6,847 nt of DNA, from the NCBI GenBank assembly GCA_001796415.1, contig MGML01000170.1, forward strand, positions 6,677 through 13,523, in the 5' to 3' direction. A model generated the notes under the pieces. That model made no database searches. It worked only from the letters and a program-made list of their open reading frames with translations, and was not told the DNA's origin. The first letter of the stretch is position 1, and each line of letters opens with the position of its first letter. This document shows, one piece after another, positions 1 through 6,406 of this stretch. This DNA is from Chloroflexi bacterium RBG_13_46_14. Lineage in GTDB: Bacteria; Chloroflexota; Dehalococcoidia; Dehalococcoidales; UBA2162. Made by a program: the position numbers and the translations under genes.

Positions 1-99
1 TATTCCAATCGCCGTGATGACCGCTTCCCTCTCGGAATCGGTTAGATTGCCCTTTTTCACCAGTTCCTGAAGGATATTCATCGCTTCTTTGTGTTCCAT
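1..99 (-). CDS. Partial hypothetical protein, N-terminal 33 residues only
   Basis: This minus-strand reading frame opens with ATG at 99-97 and stays open to the window edge. It gives 33 residues that look like amphipathic helix: a stretch around MNILQELVKKGN, then LTDSEREAVITAI. Small phage-like or accessory proteins often have such N-termini, but I do not recognise a family. A second ATG at codon 7 (81-79) is an alternative start. Neither start has a convincing Shine-Dalgarno sequence, so the start is uncertain. The gene is divergent from the hic locus, and the two starts are separated by about 80 bp that contain the hic promoter. It could also be a chance ORF, since only a fragment is visible. 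Confidence 0.5.
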   Translation of the reverse strand, partial: MEHKEAMNILQELVKKGNLTDSEREAVITAIGI

Positions 100-137
100 A
101 GTATAAGTATATCTGATTAATTATCGTACATACAGTA

Positions 138-166
138 TTGACATATGATACCATATATGATACCAT
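138..166 (+). promoter_or_regulatory. Candidate promoter of the hicAB locus
   Basis: A perfect -35 box, TTGACA (138-143), is followed after 17 nt by TACCAT (161-166), which matches four of six bases of the -10 consensus. The expected transcription start is near 173, only a few bases before the best candidate hicA start, so the leader would be very short. The spacer and -10 box are built from a tandem repeat listed separately, which suggests repressor binding directly over the promoter. Confidence 0.55.
143..166 (+). repeat. Tandem 12-bp repeat in the hic promoter, candidate HicB operator
   Basis: ATATGATACCAT occurs twice back to back (143-154 and 155-166) without a mismatch. Its core ATGATACCAT is itself nearly palindromic: the reverse complement is ATGGTATCAT, identical at eight of ten positions. 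The repeat occupies the spacer and -10 box. HicB proteins with a ribbon-helix-helix domain are known to autorepress their operons by binding repeats or palindromes at the promoter. The assignment of this repeat as that operator is inference. Confidence 0.5.
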
Positions 167-178
167 TCCTTTTCAGGA

Positions 179-397
179 ATAAGCAAGAAGTCAAAAAGAG
201 AAGAACGAATCAGGACAAACAGGGCGAACGTTTCACTCAAGGACTTTGAAGCATTAATTATCCAGTATGGCTTTATCAAAGAAGGAAGCAAACATCCCCA
301 GGCTATCATTGGCAATAGAGTAATGACATATAAAAGAGAAAATCCGGTCAAGCCAGTCTATGTAAATGGAATACTCAAAATGATAGATAATTTGTAG
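179..397 (+). CDS. hicA: HicA-type mRNA interferase toxin, start codon missing or non-canonical
   Basis: The frame ending at TAG 395-397 encodes a body that reads as HicA: a KDFEALI helix, a glycine, then GSKHP with the presumed catalytic histidine (codon 293-295), then a basic strand with KRENPVK and a C-terminal YVNGILKMIDNL helix. HicA toxins are small double-stranded-RNA-binding-fold ribonucleases that cleave mRNA and are neutralised by HicB. The frame is open from 161 but has no ATG, GTG or TTG before the conserved region. The best candidate is ATA at 179, giving 72 residues beginning ISKKSK, with AGGA immediately upstream but no spacing. This could be a decayed ATG, a rare start, or a sequencing error. 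hicB begins 14 nt downstream of the stop. Family call good; start and functionality uncertain, and it may be a pseudogene. Confidence 0.6.
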   Translation: MSKKSKREERIRTNRANVSLKDFEALIIQYGFIKEGSKHPQAIIGNRVMTYKRENPVKPVYVNGILKMIDNL

Positions 398-411
398 GAG
401 TGCGGGAGAAG

Positions 412-834
412 ATGGTAAAGGGCGATATAAAAACTCAAGCAGAATATTACGCACAGCTTCCCTACACTATTGTAGTTGAACGTGTAGATGACCAGGGTGT
501 GTACTACGTAGCCCGGATACTGGAACTCGATGGTTTAATAATGACCGGAGACACTCCAGAAGAAGCTGTCTCCGAGCTTGAAACGGTAAAAAGGGAATGG
601 ATTGAGTCCTCTCTGGAGCTGGGAAATAAAATGCCCAAACCTCTGAAATCGCGTAAATACTCCGGACAGTACCGGATTCGTATGGTACCATCATTGCACG
701 AGACACTTGCTCTACTGGCTGAACTTGAAGGTGTGAGTCTTAACCAGTTTATGGTCACCAGATTAGCGCAGGTTGCCGGTGAGAATATGTCCTCGGGGAT
801 CAACAAGGTCAAAACGGAATCCGTGATTAAATAA
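412..834 (+). CDS. hicB: HicB-type antitoxin with ribbon-helix-helix DNA-binding domain
   Basis: This 140-residue protein has the usual HicB order. Residues about 18-75 form the degenerate RNase H-like toxin-binding domain: YTIVVERVDDQGVYYVARI, then a GDTPEEAV helix and a long helix ending ELGNKMPKP. Residues about 84-122 form a ribbon-helix-helix domain: a basic strand (SGQYRIRM), a helix with LHETLALLAELEG, the turn SLNQF, and a second helix. HicB binds and inhibits HicA and represses its own promoter. I chose ATG 412, which has AGGAG (396-400) and GGGAG (404-408) upstream. A GTG at 400 in the same frame would add four residues but overlaps the Shine-Dalgarno site. The residues after about 123 are polar and probably disordered. 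A strong hairpin terminator follows. Confidence 0.85.
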   Translation: MVKGDIKTQAEYYAQLPYTIVVERVDDQGVYYVARILELDGLIMTGDTPEEAVSELETVKREWIESSLELGNKMPKPLKSRKYSGQYRIRMVPSLHETLALLAELEGVSLNQFMVTRLAQVAGENMSSGINKVKTESVIK

Positions 835-852
835 ATTTAAAAAGTACCAATA

Positions 853-876
853 AAAAGGGGGCTTTCGCCCCCTTTT
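853..876. terminator. Bidirectional intrinsic terminator between hicB and etfA
   Basis: AAAAGGGGGC (853-862) and GCCCCCTTTT (867-876) pair perfectly over 10 bp around a TTTC loop. The stem carries A-tracts and T-tracts on both sides, so it can end plus-strand transcription of hicAB and minus-strand transcription of acd-etfBA. It lies 18 nt after the hicB stop and 16 nt beyond the etfA stop. Confidence 0.9.
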
Positions 877-892
877 AATCACCATTCAATAA

Positions 893-1894
893 TTAGGCTT
901 TTAGTTTCTTGAATTCCTCGATAAGTGCCGGTACAACCTCTCTGTAATCGGCTACTATCGCGTAGTCGGCCGCTTTCATAATCGGGGCATCTTTGTCGCG
1001 GTTAATCGCTACTATTTTTTTAGAGTCCTGGATTCCAATCAGGTGATGGATAACGCCAGATATCCCAACACCGATATACAGATTCGGGTGAACAGTCTTA
1101 CCGCTCTGTCCTATCATCTGCTCGTCCTGGACAGCCCAGCCTTCATCACAGGCCGGACGGGTGGCGCCGACGCTGCCGCCGAGTGACGCCGCGAGATCTT
1201 CCACCATCTTCCAGTTTTCTTTGCTGCCGATACCGTAACCACCGGCGACCACTACTTCAGCCGATTCAAGAGGTTTAACCTTTGATTCTTCAGTCTTAAC
1301 TTCCAGCACCCTGGTGCGGAGGTCTTGCTCAAGAATCTTTACCTCGACGTTCACGATCTCGGCCTTTCGCCCTTCCTGCTTTTCGGGTTTCTTCAGGAAT
1401 CCGGGGGGAATTGTGGCCATTTGAGGGCGGTGAACGGCGCAGGTGATCGAAGCCATGATACTGCCGCCGAACGAGGGCACGAAAGCTTTCATGCACCCGT
1501 TATCGTCTACATCGAGACCCACCGCGTGAGCGGCAAGACCAGTATTTACCTTTGCCGCGACCCTTGGTGCAAGGTCCATTCCTATAGTGCTTCCGCCTAT
1601 GACGAAAACCTCCGGCTTGTATTGCTTGATCATGCCCTCGAGTACCGGAGCATAGGCTTCGCATAGATAATTTTCAAGTACCGGAGAATCGGCAATATAG
1701 ACCTTATCAGCCCCGTATGCTGCCAGTTCTTCGGCAAGACCGGCGACTTTGCTTCCCAGTACTACTGCGGCCAGTTCCTGTCCGCGTTTATCAGCTATCT
1801 TACGGGCTTCACCCAGCAGTTCCGGTCCTGAATCAAGTAATTTACCGTTCCTCTGCTCTGCGTATACCCAAATTCCACTATATGTATCAGTCAT
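893..1894 (-). CDS. etfA: Electron transfer flavoprotein, alpha subunit
   Basis: This 333-residue protein has normal EtfA length. Residues about 7-165 form the N-terminal alpha/beta domain. The C-terminal FAD-binding domain carries the family signatures in order: GATRPACDEGW (243-253), GQSGKTVHP (262-270), GISGVIHHLIGIQDS (277-291) and IVAINRDKDAPI (294-305). EtfA binds FAD and, with EtfB, exchanges electrons with acyl-CoA dehydrogenases in the cytoplasm. It is the last gene of the acd-etfBA operon, 17 nt after etfB, with GGAGG five bases before the ATG. The common GAIQH segment reads GVIHH here, so the Gln before the conserved His is replaced by His. Whether the complex bifurcates electrons to ferredoxin cannot be decided by eye. 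Confidence 0.95.
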   Translation of the reverse strand: MTDTYSGIWVYAEQRNGKLLDSGPELLGEARKIADKRGQELAAVVLGSKVAGLAEELAAYGADKVYIADSPVLENYLCEAYAPVLEGMIKQYKPEVFVIGGSTIGMDLAPRVAAKVNTGLAAHAVGLDVDDNGCMKAFVPSFGGSIMASITCAVHRPQMATIPPGFLKKPEKQEGRKAEIVNVEVKILEQDLRTRVLEVKTEESKVKPLESAEVVVAGGYGIGSKENWKMVEDLAASLGGSVGATRPACDEGWAVQDEQMIGQSGKTVHPNLYIGVGISGVIHHLIGIQDSKKIVAINRDKDAPIMKAADYAIVADYREVVPALIEEFKKLKA

Positions 1895-1911
1895 AATATC
1901 CTCCAGATATT

Positions 1912-2724
1912 TTATGCCTCGGGAAGCACTCCGTCGGCTTTGAGTTTTTCTACCAGCTGCCGTGCTATGTCGGCAGGATCGCCGCTGATCACCTCACCCT
2001 TGCGCTGTGTGTCGATATTCGAAACCTCGGGAACGTATGAAGGCGAACCGGCAAGACCGATTTTCTCCTCGTCGACATCCATGTCTTTTGCCGTGTATTT
2101 AGTACTTTGTTTCTCAGTAGCCCAGAGAGCGCCATGAACCGGAGGGATCCTGGGATCGTTTATCTCACTGTTTACAGCCAGTGTGACCGGAAACTTTGCC
2201 TCCACGACCATATGTCCACCTTCGATCTTACACCTGGCATGGACGGTATCATCATGGACAAATTTGATTTCTTCTACATTTGTTAAATGAGGTATTCCAA
2301 GGAATTCGGCGACCTGCGGACCAACCTGGGCAGTACTTCCGTCCAGACTCTCATTACCGAGGATGACCATGTCGACATCGCCGGTTTTCTTGATACCGGT
2401 AGCTATTACGTAAGCTGTGGCCAGGGTATCGGCGCCAGCGAAAGCCCTGTCCGAAAGGAGAACCGCGTCATCGACTCCCATCGCATAAGCCCAGGCAAGG
2501 ACGTCGAAGGTACTGTCCGGCCCCATACTTATTACCGTAACCTTGCCGCCACGCTCTTCTTTTATTTTCAATGCCTCTTCGATGGCATTTTTATCCAGGG
2601 GATTCATGATGATAGGTATACCTTCGCGCCGGAGCAGCTTTGTTTTCGGATCCAGGCTGAGTCTGTCCCAGTATCTCGAATCGGGAACAGGCTTAACACA
2701 CACAACTATATTTAATGGCTTCAT
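1912..2724 (-). CDS. etfB: Electron transfer flavoprotein, beta subunit
   Basis: This 270-residue EtfB has the expected motifs: IVVCVKPVPD at the N-terminus (6-15), MNPLDKNAIEEALKIKE (40-56), VTVISMGP (62-69), SDRAFAGADTLATA (91-104), GNESLDGSTAQVGPQVAEF (123-141) and NSEINDPRIPP (185-195). The AGADT and DGSTAQVGP segments are the nucleotide- or flavin-binding loops. Their form is closer to bacterial anaerobic ETFs, a group that includes bifurcating ones, than to the AMP-binding mitochondrial type. That comparison is from memory and is not proof. It forms a heterodimer with EtfA. The start lies 28 nt after the acd stop, preceded by GAGGAG. Order and spacing indicate co-transcription with the dehydrogenase, so this ETF is probably its dedicated electron partner. 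Confidence 0.95.
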   Translation of the reverse strand: MKPLNIVVCVKPVPDSRYWDRLSLDPKTKLLRREGIPIIMNPLDKNAIEEALKIKEERGGKVTVISMGPDSTFDVLAWAYAMGVDDAVLLSDRAFAGADTLATAYVIATGIKKTGDVDMVILGNESLDGSTAQVGPQVAEFLGIPHLTNVEEIKFVHDDTVHARCKIEGGHMVVEAKFPVTLAVNSEINDPRIPPVHGALWATEKQSTKYTAKDMDVDEEKIGLAGSPSYVPEVSNIDTQRKGEVISGDPADIARQLVEKLKADGVLPEA

Positions 2725-2752
2725 GCTATTTCTCCTCGCCTATTATTCATTC

Positions 2753-3979
2753 TTACCATTCCAGGCGCCCCCACCAGCCGGCTGTTTCCATTGAGTTGTG
2801 GCTGAGATCAGGATTCGCTTCGTTACGAAATGCTGCATTGGCTATCATTATACCCAGGGACTCTTCCGTGCCACCGGCACCGAATCTCATCGGTACGTGC
2901 CTGTAATAGTGATGCGGCATATAATCTTCCAGGACACCGTAGCCACCATGTATTTTCACGCAGTGTTCGGCAATCCTTATTGCTGCCTGCTCGGCAAAAT
3001 TTTTCGCCGTCGCCTGCTCGGCATCTGCCCTGATTCCTTTTGTCCGAAGCCAGGCAGCACGATAGGTAAGAGCTCTTGTAGCTTCAAGGTCAACCACCAT
3101 CTTAGCTATGCGTGCCTGGATCATCTGTAACTCGGAGATCGGCCGTCCGTAAAGGTGTCTTTCCTTGGCGTACATCATTGCCGTCCGGTAAGAACCGGCA
3201 GAAATACCGTTCAGCATGCCGCAAATGGTAAGACGTCCGATATCGCCGACAGCGCTGAACACAGGGGCTATTCCTCTTCCTACTCCTTTTTCTCCACCGA
3301 CAACGAAATTGTCGGGAACAAATACGTTATCGAAGATAAATTCAGTCAGATCACTCTTCCTGCCCAGGGTGTTTTCAAGCCTGCCGACCCTGAATCCGTC
3401 GAATTCTTTATCGACGATGAAAGCGGTCAATGACCGGGAGCCGGGGGTCTTCGGATCGTTAGGATCACCCGTCTTGAAAAGTGTCATTACAAAATCGCAA
3501 TAGTGCCCTTCACTCTGGAATACCTTTCTACCGTTTAGTACCCAACCGCCGTCAACTTTCTTGGCTTGAGCCTGGAGACCAAGCATATCCGAACCGCCGC
3601 TGGGTTCCGTAATAGCCGGTGTTGCCAGGATATCTCCCTTTAAAATACCGGGCATGTATTTATCATATACATCTCCACCGGTAGCCTTGGCAAAGTAATA
3701 AGCAAATTCACCGTAAATAGCAAAAGCAAGATCTGGCCAGGCGGCGCATAATTCTTCAATGGTGATACAGCTTGCCACATACCCTATTCCGGTACCACCT
3801 TCTTCACGAGGTACGATATGAAGGTGAAGGCCTGCCCTGGTCTGGCGGTGGGCTTCTTCGTCCCACATATCCTGGTCGTTTGTCATCAGTTCTTTGCGGC
3901 GGGGAATTATATATTTCTCACAATATTCACGGGCAATTTTCCGTGCCATTTCCTCCGCCGGAGATAATTCAAAAGGCAT
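2753..3979 (-). CDS. Acyl-CoA dehydrogenase family protein with no canonical catalytic Glu
   Basis: This 408-residue protein spans the usual acyl-CoA dehydrogenase length: an N-terminal helical domain (about 5-115), a middle beta domain with AITEPSGGSD (122-131) and GWVLNGRKVF (145-154) for FAD and substrate binding, and a C-terminal helical domain with RHLYGRPISELQMIQ (274-288) and IHGGYGVLEDY (343-353). Family members oxidise acyl-CoA at C2-C3, or reduce enoyl-CoA, with FAD and pass electrons to ETF. The classic catalytic Glu in the YEGT motif is replaced: the segment reads FGAGGTEES (366-374), with Gly369 at that place. The alternative Glu used by isovaleryl- and long-chain enzymes also appears to be Gly248 in GDIGRL. 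AAGGAGG lies seven bases before the ATG. It is the first gene of the operon with etfB and etfA. The family is certain; the substrate is unknown. Confidence 0.93.
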   Translation of the reverse strand: MPFELSPAEEMARKIAREYCEKYIIPRRKELMTNDQDMWDEEAHRQTRAGLHLHIVPREEGGTGIGYVASCITIEELCAAWPDLAFAIYGEFAYYFAKATGGDVYDKYMPGILKGDILATPAITEPSGGSDMLGLQAQAKKVDGGWVLNGRKVFQSEGHYCDFVMTLFKTGDPNDPKTPGSRSLTAFIVDKEFDGFRVGRLENTLGRKSDLTEFIFDNVFVPDNFVVGGEKGVGRGIAPVFSAVGDIGRLTICGMLNGISAGSYRTAMMYAKERHLYGRPISELQMIQARIAKMVVDLEATRALTYRAAWLRTKGIRADAEQATAKNFAEQAAIRIAEHCVKIHGGYGVLEDYMPHHYYRHVPMRFGAGGTEESLGIMIANAAFRNEANPDLSHNSMETAGWWGRLEW

Positions 3980-4033
3980 AGTATAACCTCCTTAGTTCTG
4001 TATGTTCTTTACAATCGTTACCCCGGTATATAT

Positions 4034-4054
4034 TCATTCGAGGGGTTCGAATGA
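4034..4054. repeat. Perfect 21-bp dyad in the acd leader, candidate operator
   Basis: TCATTCGA (4034-4041) and TCGAATGA (4047-4054) are perfect inverted copies around GGGGT. The dyad lies 55-75 nt upstream of the acd start and downstream of the best acd promoter. Symmetric sites of about 20 bp are typical for TetR- or GntR-type repressors of acyl-CoA genes, but no specific regulator is indicated. In RNA it could also fold as a small hairpin. Confidence 0.5.
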
Positions 4055-4083
4055 TGCGGGAGTAAAATGCAGATATAATACAC

Positions 4084-4101
4084 GATAACCTTGCGGTTAT
4101 C
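4084..4101. repeat. 7-bp perfect hairpin with TTGC loop
   Basis: GATAACC (4084-4090) and GGTTATC (4095-4101) pair perfectly around TTGC. There is no T-tract, so it is unlikely to be a terminator. It falls near the expected 5' end of the acd-etfBA transcript and may be an operator or a 5'-end stabilising hairpin. Confidence 0.4.
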
Positions 4102-4110
4102 AGCCGATTT

Positions 4111-4139
4111 ATTTTGACACAGAGCCATTTCTCTGTCAA
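4111..4139 (-). promoter_or_regulatory. Candidate promoter of acd-etfBA
   Basis: On the minus strand, TTGACA (4139-4134) is followed after 17 nt by CAAAAT (4116-4111), preceded by TGT as an extended -10. This would give a leader of about 125 nt before acd. A weaker alternative further down uses CTGATA and TATTAT (about 4079-4074). The same stretch is also an inverted repeat: TTGAC/AGAG (4114-4124) against CTCTGTCAA (4131-4139) with a 2-nt bulge. A factor binding there would cover the promoter. Confidence 0.5.
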
Positions 4140-4195
4140 CTTTAACTATCCATATCATTCATACATCCGACACACTCGTTGAAAAGGCATCATCA

Positions 4196-4312: not shown

Positions 4313-5227
4313 ATGATTATTGATGCGCACCGTCACCTCGTCGGCAATGGCTGGACGAGAGGCTCGTACGTCAAGTCAATCGGTACCATGTATCTGGGCC
4401 TCTGGAACAGGGTCCACAATAAGAACCTTAGCTTCGATGAATACCTAGAGACTGTGATGAGGACGTTTATTGATCCCGAAGGTGACCGCATGGTCGAAGA
4501 GATGGACAAGGCGGGCGTCGACAAGACGGTTATTTTTGCGGTAGACTGGGGACTGGCAACCGGCGAGCCTAGAGTGGGTATCCGCGAGCAGAACAAGGCC
4601 CACGCCGATGCTGCGAAGAAGCACCCGGGCCGTTTCATTCCTCTGGCCGGAATCGATCCACGGAGGGGCGACCATTTGAGGCAGGCGCAGGAGTGCATCG
4701 AGGAGTGGGGAATGAGAGGGTTCAAGCTTATGCCATCTGCAGGCTTCTTTCCCGATGATCCCATTTGCTGGCCGCTATACGCTTATATAGAGAAGCAGGG
4801 CGTTCCGATCATGTTCCATGCCGGCGGCATTGAGGTGCACTGGCAGCACGCCCAGCCGATGTACATCGCTTCGGCAGCCGAGAAGTTCCCCGGCATTGAC
4901 ATGATTCTAGCCCACGCCGCTTGTGAAGCATGGGAAGCAGCAATATGGGCTTGCCGTTCTCTTCATAATGTATATATGGATATTTCCCTGCGCCAGTTCG
5001 AGTGTGCCATGTGGCCTGATCGTTTCTATCAGTGGCTGCGCCGTATCGTTGATGAGGCTACCCCGTGGAAGGTCATGTGGGCTAGCGACGGTCCGTATCC
5101 TAATGAACTGATCCGTTTACCGGAATGGGTAAAGTCAATTAGCGATGCTCCCAAGGGCCTCTTCACGGAAGAAGAGAAGGCTATCATGCTGGGCAAGGCA
5201 GCCACCAAGGTGTTCGATATTTCCTAA
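4313..5227 (+). CDS. Amidohydrolase_2 (COG2159) family metal-dependent hydrolase or decarboxylase
   Basis: This 304-residue protein is a TIM-barrel amidohydrolase of the ACMSD-like group. Presumed metal ligands are visible in order: IIDAHRH (His6, His8), FHAGG (His169), LAHAAC (His201) and ASDGPYP (Asp259). GFKLMP (136-141) is a typical strand-4 segment. Family members decarboxylate aromatic or muconate-type acids (for example ACMSD and gamma-resorcylate decarboxylase) or hydrolyse cyclic compounds, usually with Zn or Mn in the cytoplasm. The substrate cannot be read from the sequence. AAGGAG lies seven bases before the ATG. It is the first gene of an operon divergent from acd-etfBA, 36 nt upstream of the nitroreductase gene. 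All 16 lysines are coded AAG, unlike the mixed AAA/AAG use of the two genes that follow. Confidence 0.88.
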   Translation: MIIDAHRHLVGNGWTRGSYVKSIGTMYLGLWNRVHNKNLSFDEYLETVMRTFIDPEGDRMVEEMDKAGVDKTVIFAVDWGLATGEPRVGIREQNKAHADAAKKHPGRFIPLAGIDPRRGDHLRQAQECIEEWGMRGFKLMPSAGFFPDDPICWPLYAYIEKQGVPIMFHAGGIEVHWQHAQPMYIASAAEKFPGIDMILAHAACEAWEAAIWACRSLHNVYMDISLRQFECAMWPDRFYQWLRRIVDEATPWKVMWASDGPYPNELIRLPEWVKSISDAPKGLFTEEEKAIMLGKAATKVFDIS

Positions 5228-5263
5228 TCATCAATTAGAAAAATAAAAAATCGGAGAAATATT

Positions 5264-5920
5264 ATGGCTGATATTCTGGATGTCATAAGCAGCCGGCAGA
5301 GTATACGCAAGTATACCGATGAGCCGATATCGGACGAAATGATCGACAAAATCGTGGAAGCCGCCCGGTGGGCACCGAGTGGTGAGAACGAACAACCCTG
5401 GCACTTTATCATGGTAAAAGACCCGGAAACTCGAAAGAAAATCGGCGATCTGTGCAAGGTCGGGACCGGCCAGCGCGGCACTGCCGAACACTGCCTTGGT
5501 GAAGACCACAGATTCGATGTATACGAAGACCCGGCTGAAAGAGCCAGGGTAGCCGAATTCTATTACAGCGGAATGGTCTCATACTTCCCAGCCAATGCGC
5601 CGCTGGTTATGGTCGTCATAGGAGAACTTAAAGGAATGATGGATACTCCTTACGACCTCTCGGCAGCAATAGAGAACGCCATTCTCGAAGCGCATTCACT
5701 CGGGCTGGGCGCCTGCTGGGTCCACGGACCTGCCGTATATCCCCGTATAGTCAAGAAGATAAAAGAGCTTCTCGGTATTCCCACCGGTTTGGCTGATTAC
5801 AAGATGCTGGCTATCGTCTCGATAGGCTGGCCTTCCGGACGCCGCAGTCACCCCCAGGGCAGGAAAGATGCGTCAGAGTTCGTGCACTGGGAAAAATTCG
5901 GGAACAAGAAGAGGAGCTAA
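5264..5920 (+). CDS. Nitroreductase-family FMN oxidoreductase
   Basis: This 218-residue protein starts with the FMN phosphate-binding pattern SRQSIRKY (10-17, Arg11, Ser13, Arg15), then EAARWAPSGENEQPWHFIMV (32-51), a hallmark of the family. A later GLGACWVHG segment (147-155) and the AIVSIGWPSG strand (183-192) complete the fold. Members bind FMN, usually as dimers, and reduce nitro groups, quinones, enones or other electrophiles with NAD(P)H; some act in dehalogenation or ring chemistry. An insert at about 65-100 carrying two cysteines (Cys64, Cys77) and many charged residues lengthens the middle. GGAG lies seven bases before the ATG. Its stop codon is directly followed by the start of the next gene, so the two products are probably made together. 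Natural substrate unknown. Confidence 0.9.
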   Translation: MADILDVISSRQSIRKYTDEPISDEMIDKIVEAARWAPSGENEQPWHFIMVKDPETRKKIGDLCKVGTGQRGTAEHCLGEDHRFDVYEDPAERARVAEFYYSGMVSYFPANAPLVMVVIGELKGMMDTPYDLSAAIENAILEAHSLGLGACWVHGPAVYPRIVKKIKELLGIPTGLADYKMLAIVSIGWPSGRRSHPQGRKDASEFVHWEKFGNKKRS

Positions 5921-6406
5921 ATGGATACAATAGCATACACCAACGATTTGTTATACAGATTCGAAGAAATCTTTTTCCACGAGCTTTCCCAAATCAATGC
6001 CCGGTGCAAGGTGGAACTCGTCGGCTCGGATTATCTCAATGACAGGAATATCCAGGGCAACACTATTGAAGAACTGGTCGAAAACTGCGTCCAGGAAATC
6101 AAGATGGACGGTCTTGTCCAGGAAATGACCGGAAAGGTAGGCGGAAAAGGCATCCTGCTTAAGCTGAATATGAAAGGCTGTATCCACCTGCCCAAGGAAG
6201 TCAAACTCAAGGAAAGCGGGATCGATCCATATATGTGCCCGTTAGCCAATATGATCTCCGAGCAGATTATCACTAAACTGAATTACATGACCACGTACTC
6301 GGCCGGCCTTGAGGTGAATGAAAAAACCGGCGAATGCCTGATATACTGCGCTGTATATAAAGATATGGACTCGATAGGAGTCGTATCCGACTGGAGTAAA
6401 GAATAA
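5921..6406 (+). CDS. Unrecognised 161-residue Cys-containing protein coupled to the nitroreductase
   Basis: I do not recognise a family. The protein is 161 residues, soluble, with no signal peptide or membrane segment. An N-terminal helical part (about 1-70) contains the predicted helices RFEEIFFHELSQI and TIEELVENCVQEI. The C-terminal half looks alpha/beta, with the strand GILLKLNMKGC, then KESGIDPYMCPLANMI, and the strands SAGLEVN and ECLIYCAVY. Six cysteines occur (29, 56, 87, 106, 139, 143). The GC87IHLPKE, PYMC106P and C139LIYC143 segments look like a small-ligand, metal or cofactor pocket, reminiscent of small-molecule sensor domains, but that is inference. The ATG follows the nitroreductase stop codon with no gap, and GAGGAG lies four bases upstream, so translation is likely coupled. 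It may be a partner or activator of the upstream enzymes. Confidence 0.8.
   Translation: MDTIAYTNDLLYRFEEIFFHELSQINARCKVELVGSDYLNDRNIQGNTIEELVENCVQEIKMDGLVQEMTGKVGGKGILLKLNMKGCIHLPKEVKLKESGIDPYMCPLANMISEQIITKLNYMTTYSAGLEVNEKTGECLIYCAVYKDMDSIGVVSDWSKE

Follow-up and report, generated by a model that had tools for sequence, protein, structure and literature searches.

The window, as we call the whole 6,847-nucleotide stretch that was analysed, carries on its minus strand an operon in which an acyl-CoA dehydrogenase gene comes first and is followed by etfB and etfA. The features discussed below are:

2753..3979, minus strand: acyl-CoA dehydrogenase without either canonical catalytic glutamate (408 aa ORF)
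3680..3721, minus strand: helix E, residues 87-100, including Glu91 with codon 3707-3709 (DSSP of the model)
3236..3238, minus strand: codon of Gly248, at the isovaleryl-/long-chain-type Glu site on helix G (spacing against 4o5m)
2867..2878, minus strand: codons of A368-G369-G370-T371, the site of Y-E-G-T in most relatives (phmmer alignments)
1912..2724, minus strand: etfB, electron transfer flavoprotein beta subunit (Pfam ETF)
893..1894, minus strand: etfA, electron transfer flavoprotein alpha subunit (Pfam ETF and ETF_alpha)
1478..1480, minus strand: codon of EtfA Val139, at the bifurcating-flavin site of CarE Arg203 and C. difficile EtfA Arg136 (alignments)

A glutamate is the catalytic base in nearly all studied acyl-CoA dehydrogenases. 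The 408-residue protein matches Pfam PF02771, PF02770 and PF00441, the N-terminal, middle and C-terminal domains of this enzyme class, and its frame, strand and length are those given in an earlier sequence-only reading. That reading had also reported both canonical glutamates missing, and the alignments bear this out. First, phmmer alignments with three PDB chains (5lnx, 4n5f and 1ws9) place Gly369, in the motif AGGT, on the J-K-loop glutamate of YEGT/GEGT that marks canonical enzymes. Secondly, Gly248 falls on the helix-G glutamate (D-x-E-R) of isovaleryl-CoA dehydrogenase (IVD) and long-chain (LCAD) enzymes, the DIGR of the window protein and the LDYER of the IVD-type chain 4o5m being equally spaced to Arg. 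An extra helix-G residue lies just before the GR region and Gly248 in the aligned rows that lack both glutamates (hereafter Glu-less). A search listed 78 proteins at E <=1e-60. Identities to the query are 48-100% in the 63 that make up the family (query counted) and 35-38% in the remaining 15. In the alignment of these 78 rows (A1), 62 family members have a letter at each of the two positions, and 61 of them carry Gly; the sole exception at either, P0061, has a C-terminus that reads jumbled. A 95% identical homologue in a Dehalococcoidia MAG (locus L001) shares 389 of the 408 residues, and the dN/dS of 0.03 for this pair indicates that the gene is maintained.

All three operon genes are retained in L001, with 85.7% DNA identity over 3295 columns and dN/dS values against the window of 0.030, 0.065 and 0.041. 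By its sequence, the operon encodes an ETF-coupled acyl-CoA dehydrogenase. Comparison of genome loci revealed that etfB follows 14 of 18 Glu-less dehydrogenase genes (it is absent after those of L068, L074, L075 and L077) and none of 22 acid-bearing ones, as scored in flanks that as a rule measured 1.3-kb to 1.5-kb (Fisher p 1.3e-7, a value that ignores kinship between loci).

The best PDB match of EtfA is CarE, at 313 bits where the highest-scoring human EtfA chain reaches 149, and those of EtfB are CarD (190 bits), C. difficile EtfB, LctB and A. fermentans EtfB. Bifurcation had been considered settled by these nearest matches, a conclusion that was withdrawn once an Arg-to-Val change appeared in EtfA. 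The arginine concerned, R136 in C. difficile EtfA and R203 in CarE, lies at the bifurcating flavin (beta-FAD N5) and is described as conserved and crucial in sections of PMC5691135 and PMC5861303. The window EtfA has Val139 at this site and so departs from bifurcating EtfABs. Valine was found in 14 of the 14 distinct EtfAs that are linked to Glu-less genes and cover the site, the window included; in L063 and L067 the residues around the site align raggedly, and the L064 sequence stops short of the Arg site. Other departures from Arg include Lys in an unlinked EtfA of L061 and His in E. coli FixB and YdiR. A second mark of bifurcating ETFs, Gly123 in A. fermentans EtfB according to part of PMC12630350, is present in the window EtfB as Gly129, and relatives carry Ser, Val or Gly there. 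The partner ETF is, judged from these alignments, a member of the bifurcating lineage in which the key flavin-contact Arg has been replaced by Val.

Phylogenetic analysis gave three trees (93, 67 and 59 rows), each with a single branch of SH-aLRT 100 that splits Glu-less from acid-bearing rows; these are quick IQ-TREE runs with SH-aLRT as their one support measure, and the Glu-less rows come from three groups. In the 67-row tree the branch separates 46 Glu-less rows from 21 acid-bearing ones, among which L045 has Asp. Rows on the acid-bearing side have a loop acid, or a helix-G acid in the case of CaiA, YdiO and an IVD. The 93-row tree and the residue comparison (79 Glu-less and 60 canonical rows) omit seven family rows that are fragmentary or jumbled, and four more distant acyl-CoA dehydrogenases of MAG G001 (two in L004, one each in L006 and L009) were aligned but omitted from the trees. 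The window protein is thereby placed in a larger clade of Glu-less acyl-CoA dehydrogenases, of which we found no earlier report in the literature searched, where few subscription journals were covered. Two distant G001 paralogues, with SYGS (L004) and FLGE (L009), also lack both glutamates, which means that losses have occurred outside the clade as well.

Gly128 and Arg151 are common to the 79 Glu-less rows, and Tyr277 is found in 75 of them, at a position where all 60 canonical rows have Phe. Arg151 is a weak clade mark, as CarC also carries Arg. A search with P0001 returned one of 294 class genomes at E 1e-90. With alignment A1 as query, 25 of 156 order genomes were found at E 1e-100, only G001 reaching family level (708 bits, against 336-380 for the rest), and one of 400 phylum genomes at E 1e-118.

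The sequence-only reading had drawn attention to a glutamate at residue 91, in the segment AIYGEFAYY; the residue is as it stated, and arithmetic confirms its codon at 3709-3707. In a confident AlphaFold2 model (mean pLDDT 93.3), residue 91 lies inside the helix formed by residues 87-100. Among the 60 family members with a letter at this position of A1, Glu occurs in 53, Asp in 3, Gln in 2, Gly in 1 and Asn in 1. An acid is thus present in 56 and absent from four, and residues 85-88 just ahead vary.

The exact register of this residue was derived from its distance to the Gly that caps helix E. Alignments by phmmer and MAFFT, as well as the helix ends, put Glu91 ten residues before the cap Gly, and some other alignments put it nine before. 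L-INS-i alignments shift the family row by one residue in either direction, and a profile-profile alignment gives ten by default and nine without realignment. With P0082 as the canonical model, the end of helix E gives ten, while helix F fits nine. The register is therefore uncertain by one residue, ten-before appearing the likelier. In the portion of PMC12369846 that treats the IVD pocket, its residues are L127, A131 and L135, which by our own count on the letters stand 17, 13 and 9 before the cap Gly. Since nine-before is an IVD pocket position and ten-before, on an ideal helix, is turned by about 20 degrees relative to 17-before, residue 91 would be located at the acyl pocket in either register.

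To read this position across the superfamily, both registers were considered. Counted ten before the cap, Glu is also present in 7 of the 60 enzymes in the comparison that retain the J-K-loop Glu; these seven are canonical YEGT enzymes (L029, L030, L031, L033, L037, L040 and L044). The 23 Glu-less rows outside the family have His (18), Gln (4) or Gly (1) there, and the 16 Glu-less loci found in 15 of 393 class genomes have Asn (6), Gln (3), Gly (2), His (2), Pro (1), Ser (1) or Asp (1). Counted nine before, Glu-less relatives have mostly Met, Ile, Leu or Thr, and canonical enzymes mostly Leu. In either register, the alignments thus make the acid a trait of the window protein's family and not of Glu-less dehydrogenases generally; an acid at the helix-E site appears neither specific to the clade nor necessary in it. 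As most Glu-less relatives have no acid at this site, Glu-less enzymes do not owe their function to one, and the idea that Glu91 stands in for the lost base in such enzymes generally was rejected on the same ground. The earlier proposal that Glu91 acts as the base of the window enzyme fared unevenly. The disappearance of both glutamates, the location on helix E and the conservation of an acid within the family speak for it, whereas the Glu of canonical enzymes (ten-before) and the mostly non-acidic residues of the Glu-less relatives leave it only partly supported.

That proposal had drawn on cyclohex-1-ene-1-carboxyl-CoA dehydrogenase, which reportedly lacks the usual Glu and uses Asp91 as base for a 1,4-elimination. 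In the structure 7p98 we take Asp91 to be this catalytic residue, its place in the alignment being inferred. This enzyme has 26% identity to the window protein, and its bit scores are 315 against a YEGT enzyme, 210 against the Glu-less relative L022 and 120 against the window protein. An ordinary Bcd reaches 263 bits with L022, above 7p98, and many ordinary acyl-CoA dehydrogenases outscore 7p98 against both L022 and the window protein. A special kinship with the cyclohexene enzyme is unsupported by these scores.

For the window protein's family, we tentatively favour as a possible mechanism that Glu91 would reach into the pocket from helix E and move a proton at a carbon other than C-alpha. 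The proton step would belong to a vinylogous or 1,4-type oxidation, or to the reverse reduction, with FAD N5 receiving or giving up the hydride and EtfAB carrying the electrons. We prefer this chemistry on the ground that an acid is kept at residue 91 while its neighbours vary. The substrate would be an alpha-branched, cyclic or otherwise bulky acyl-CoA. The loop is widened by Ala-Gly in place of Tyr-Glu, and A368-G369 occupies the positions of IVD G406-A407, which, in the part of PMC12369846 concerned, are said to give room for branches at the Tyr-Glu positions; A368-G369 would provide room in the same way. IVD (GAG), E. coli CaiA (SGG, as given in part of PMC8360864) and YdiO (GGG) resemble the window protein in having a J-K loop without Glu. 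However, all three carry the helix-G Glu (HER in CaiA, MER in YdiO) where the window protein has Gly248, and CaiA was ruled out as a base-free relative by its HER and its position outside the clade.

A serious rival to the Glu91 reading, although we hold it rather unlikely, is a base-free oxidation of the kind proposed for the benzylmalonyl-CoA dehydrogenase IaaF. A 2-carboxyacyl-CoA would lose CO2 from C2 while FAD takes the hydride from C3, and Glu91, at a position that need not be an acid, would do no more than shape or bind the substrate. The sections of PMC8360864 on IaaF give GGG for YEG, propose decarboxylation instead of deprotonation, and describe an ETF paralogue, termed non-bifurcating, in the iaa operons predicted for several strict anaerobes. 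The absence of the YEG Glu, a loop of small residues and an ETF gene nearby in some anaerobes are thus common to both proteins, and the family's AGGT becomes GGGT in some members such as P0053. According to the same sections, however, the IaaF subclass always has GGG and lies in iaa operons, and A. aromaticum IaaF itself does not accept ETF, whereas the window protein has AGG in an ACAD-etfB-etfA operon. Going by general gene annotation, the window genes and five L001 neighbours do not resemble an iaa set. The trees contained no IaaF sequence. A conserved acid at residue 91 would also be an odd neighbour for a substrate carboxylate. The AGG motif itself is shared with 3-sulfinopropanoyl-CoA desulfinase (part of PMC8360864), whose profile NF042439 gives 144.3 bits, below its cut-off of 600.

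The gene surroundings bear on the same rival. Beside the homologous operon of L001 lies a convergent cluster (L001 4538-8921) with genes for a mutase large subunit of the methylmalonyl-CoA type, a B12 subunit encoded separately, a thiolase, a DUF35 protein and a methylmalonyl-CoA epimerase scoring above its profile cut-off. The best PDB matches of the large subunit, which has an extra Gly-rich stretch, are 2-hydroxyisobutyryl-CoA and methylmalonyl-CoA mutases, and the DUF35 protein and thiolase show a weak BbsA/BbsB likeness. Window positions 1-101, beyond etfA, match L001 4245-4345 (blastn), so the window may enter this region, and the cluster would suit a route of the IaaF type; against this, the cluster is convergent and lies outside both operon and window.

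It is also possible, but unlikely, that the enzyme works in vivo as an enoyl-CoA reductase, like caffeyl- or acryloyl-CoA reductase. Electrons from EtfAB would deliver hydride to C-beta and solvent a proton to C-alpha, making the base dispensable. Among NCBIfam profiles, AcrC (acryloyl-CoA reductase, NF042972) scores best for the dehydrogenase and AcrA for EtfA, and the solved structures nearest to EtfA and EtfB are those of CarE and CarD, respectively. The loss of the EtfA Arg would suit the C. propionicum acrylyl-CoA reductase-EtfAB, which appears non-bifurcating in part of PMC5861303. Nevertheless, all AcrCBA profiles stay below their curated cut-offs (205.3 bits against 640 for AcrC, 172 against 475 for AcrB and 337 against 600 for AcrA). 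CarC, a known reductase of this kind, and Bcd (in CarCDE and butyryl-CoA dehydrogenase-EtfAB, respectively) keep YEGT where the window protein has AGGT, and CarE Arg203 and C. difficile EtfA Arg136 contrast with the Val of the window EtfA. CaiA and YdiO, for their part, keep the helix-G Glu and fall outside the clade.

Another residue might serve as base, leaving Glu91 to determine specificity for a substrate with a polar group, which we consider improbable. The family-invariant His52 is one candidate, since all 56 full-length members carry it and it is not the usual residue in relatives, and the Glu found ten before the cap in canonical enzymes points to substrate recognition. Two other acids named in the sequence-only reading, Asp246 and Glu372, are poor candidates. 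Parts of PMC12369846 and PMC13027082 describe a contact of IVD Asp284 with the CoA adenosine and FAD contacts of IVD E411 and SCAD E396. By our own count of positions, Asp246 matches Asp284 and Glu372 adjoins the E411/E396 site, which makes both unlikely as bases. That the protein is a degenerate enzyme without dehydrogenase activity, as the absence of both glutamates could suggest, is highly improbable given the dN/dS of 0.03, the family-wide conservation and the ETF genes kept beside most Glu-less relatives.

Returning to the clade as a whole, we regard as distinctly doubtful a broader scheme in which the Glu-less dehydrogenases and their dedicated Val-type EtfAB would form a separate redox module. 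An alpha-carbanion would arise without an enzymic alpha-base through loss of CO2 or another group, the helix-E residue would be retuned for each substrate, and the ETF would run a flavin cycle unlike that of either canonical ETFs or the bifurcating ones known so far. In the lineage of the window, a neighbouring B12 mutase would supply a substituted malonyl-CoA. In a group found in uncultured anaerobes, the loss of Glu at both known places, together with an altered electron carrier of its own, points to a reaction of anaerobic acid or aromatic metabolism that has yet to be assigned. The Val fixed in place of the flavin-contact Arg offers a testable case of bifurcation control.

Other features of the surroundings were recorded. 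Window positions 102-851, with a HicB-like gene (400-834, plus strand), have no blastn match in L001, while the flanks 1-101 and 852-4142 do; by this comparison, the segment is a local insertion or replacement downstream of etfA. A divergent cluster at window positions 4313-6406 encodes an Amidohydro_2 protein, whose one PDB sequence match at E up to 1e-6 is weak (3irs, 8e-8), a BluB-like nitroreductase and an ORF of 161 residues that matches no Pfam family. A nitroreductase-like gene also follows etfA in L059 and L061, an association too weak to serve as evidence. MAG G001 has nine HGD-D matches. A benzoyl-CoA reductase was sought there among eight scanned proteins in three clusters, all of which scored below the benzoyl-CoA-reductase cut-offs. 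One of the G001 contigs (contig 40, L052 170-4071) holds a four-gene HGD-D/activase cluster that resembles class I benzoyl-CoA reductase at scores below the cut-offs, and acyl-CoA dehydrogenase genes lie a few kb upstream of it.
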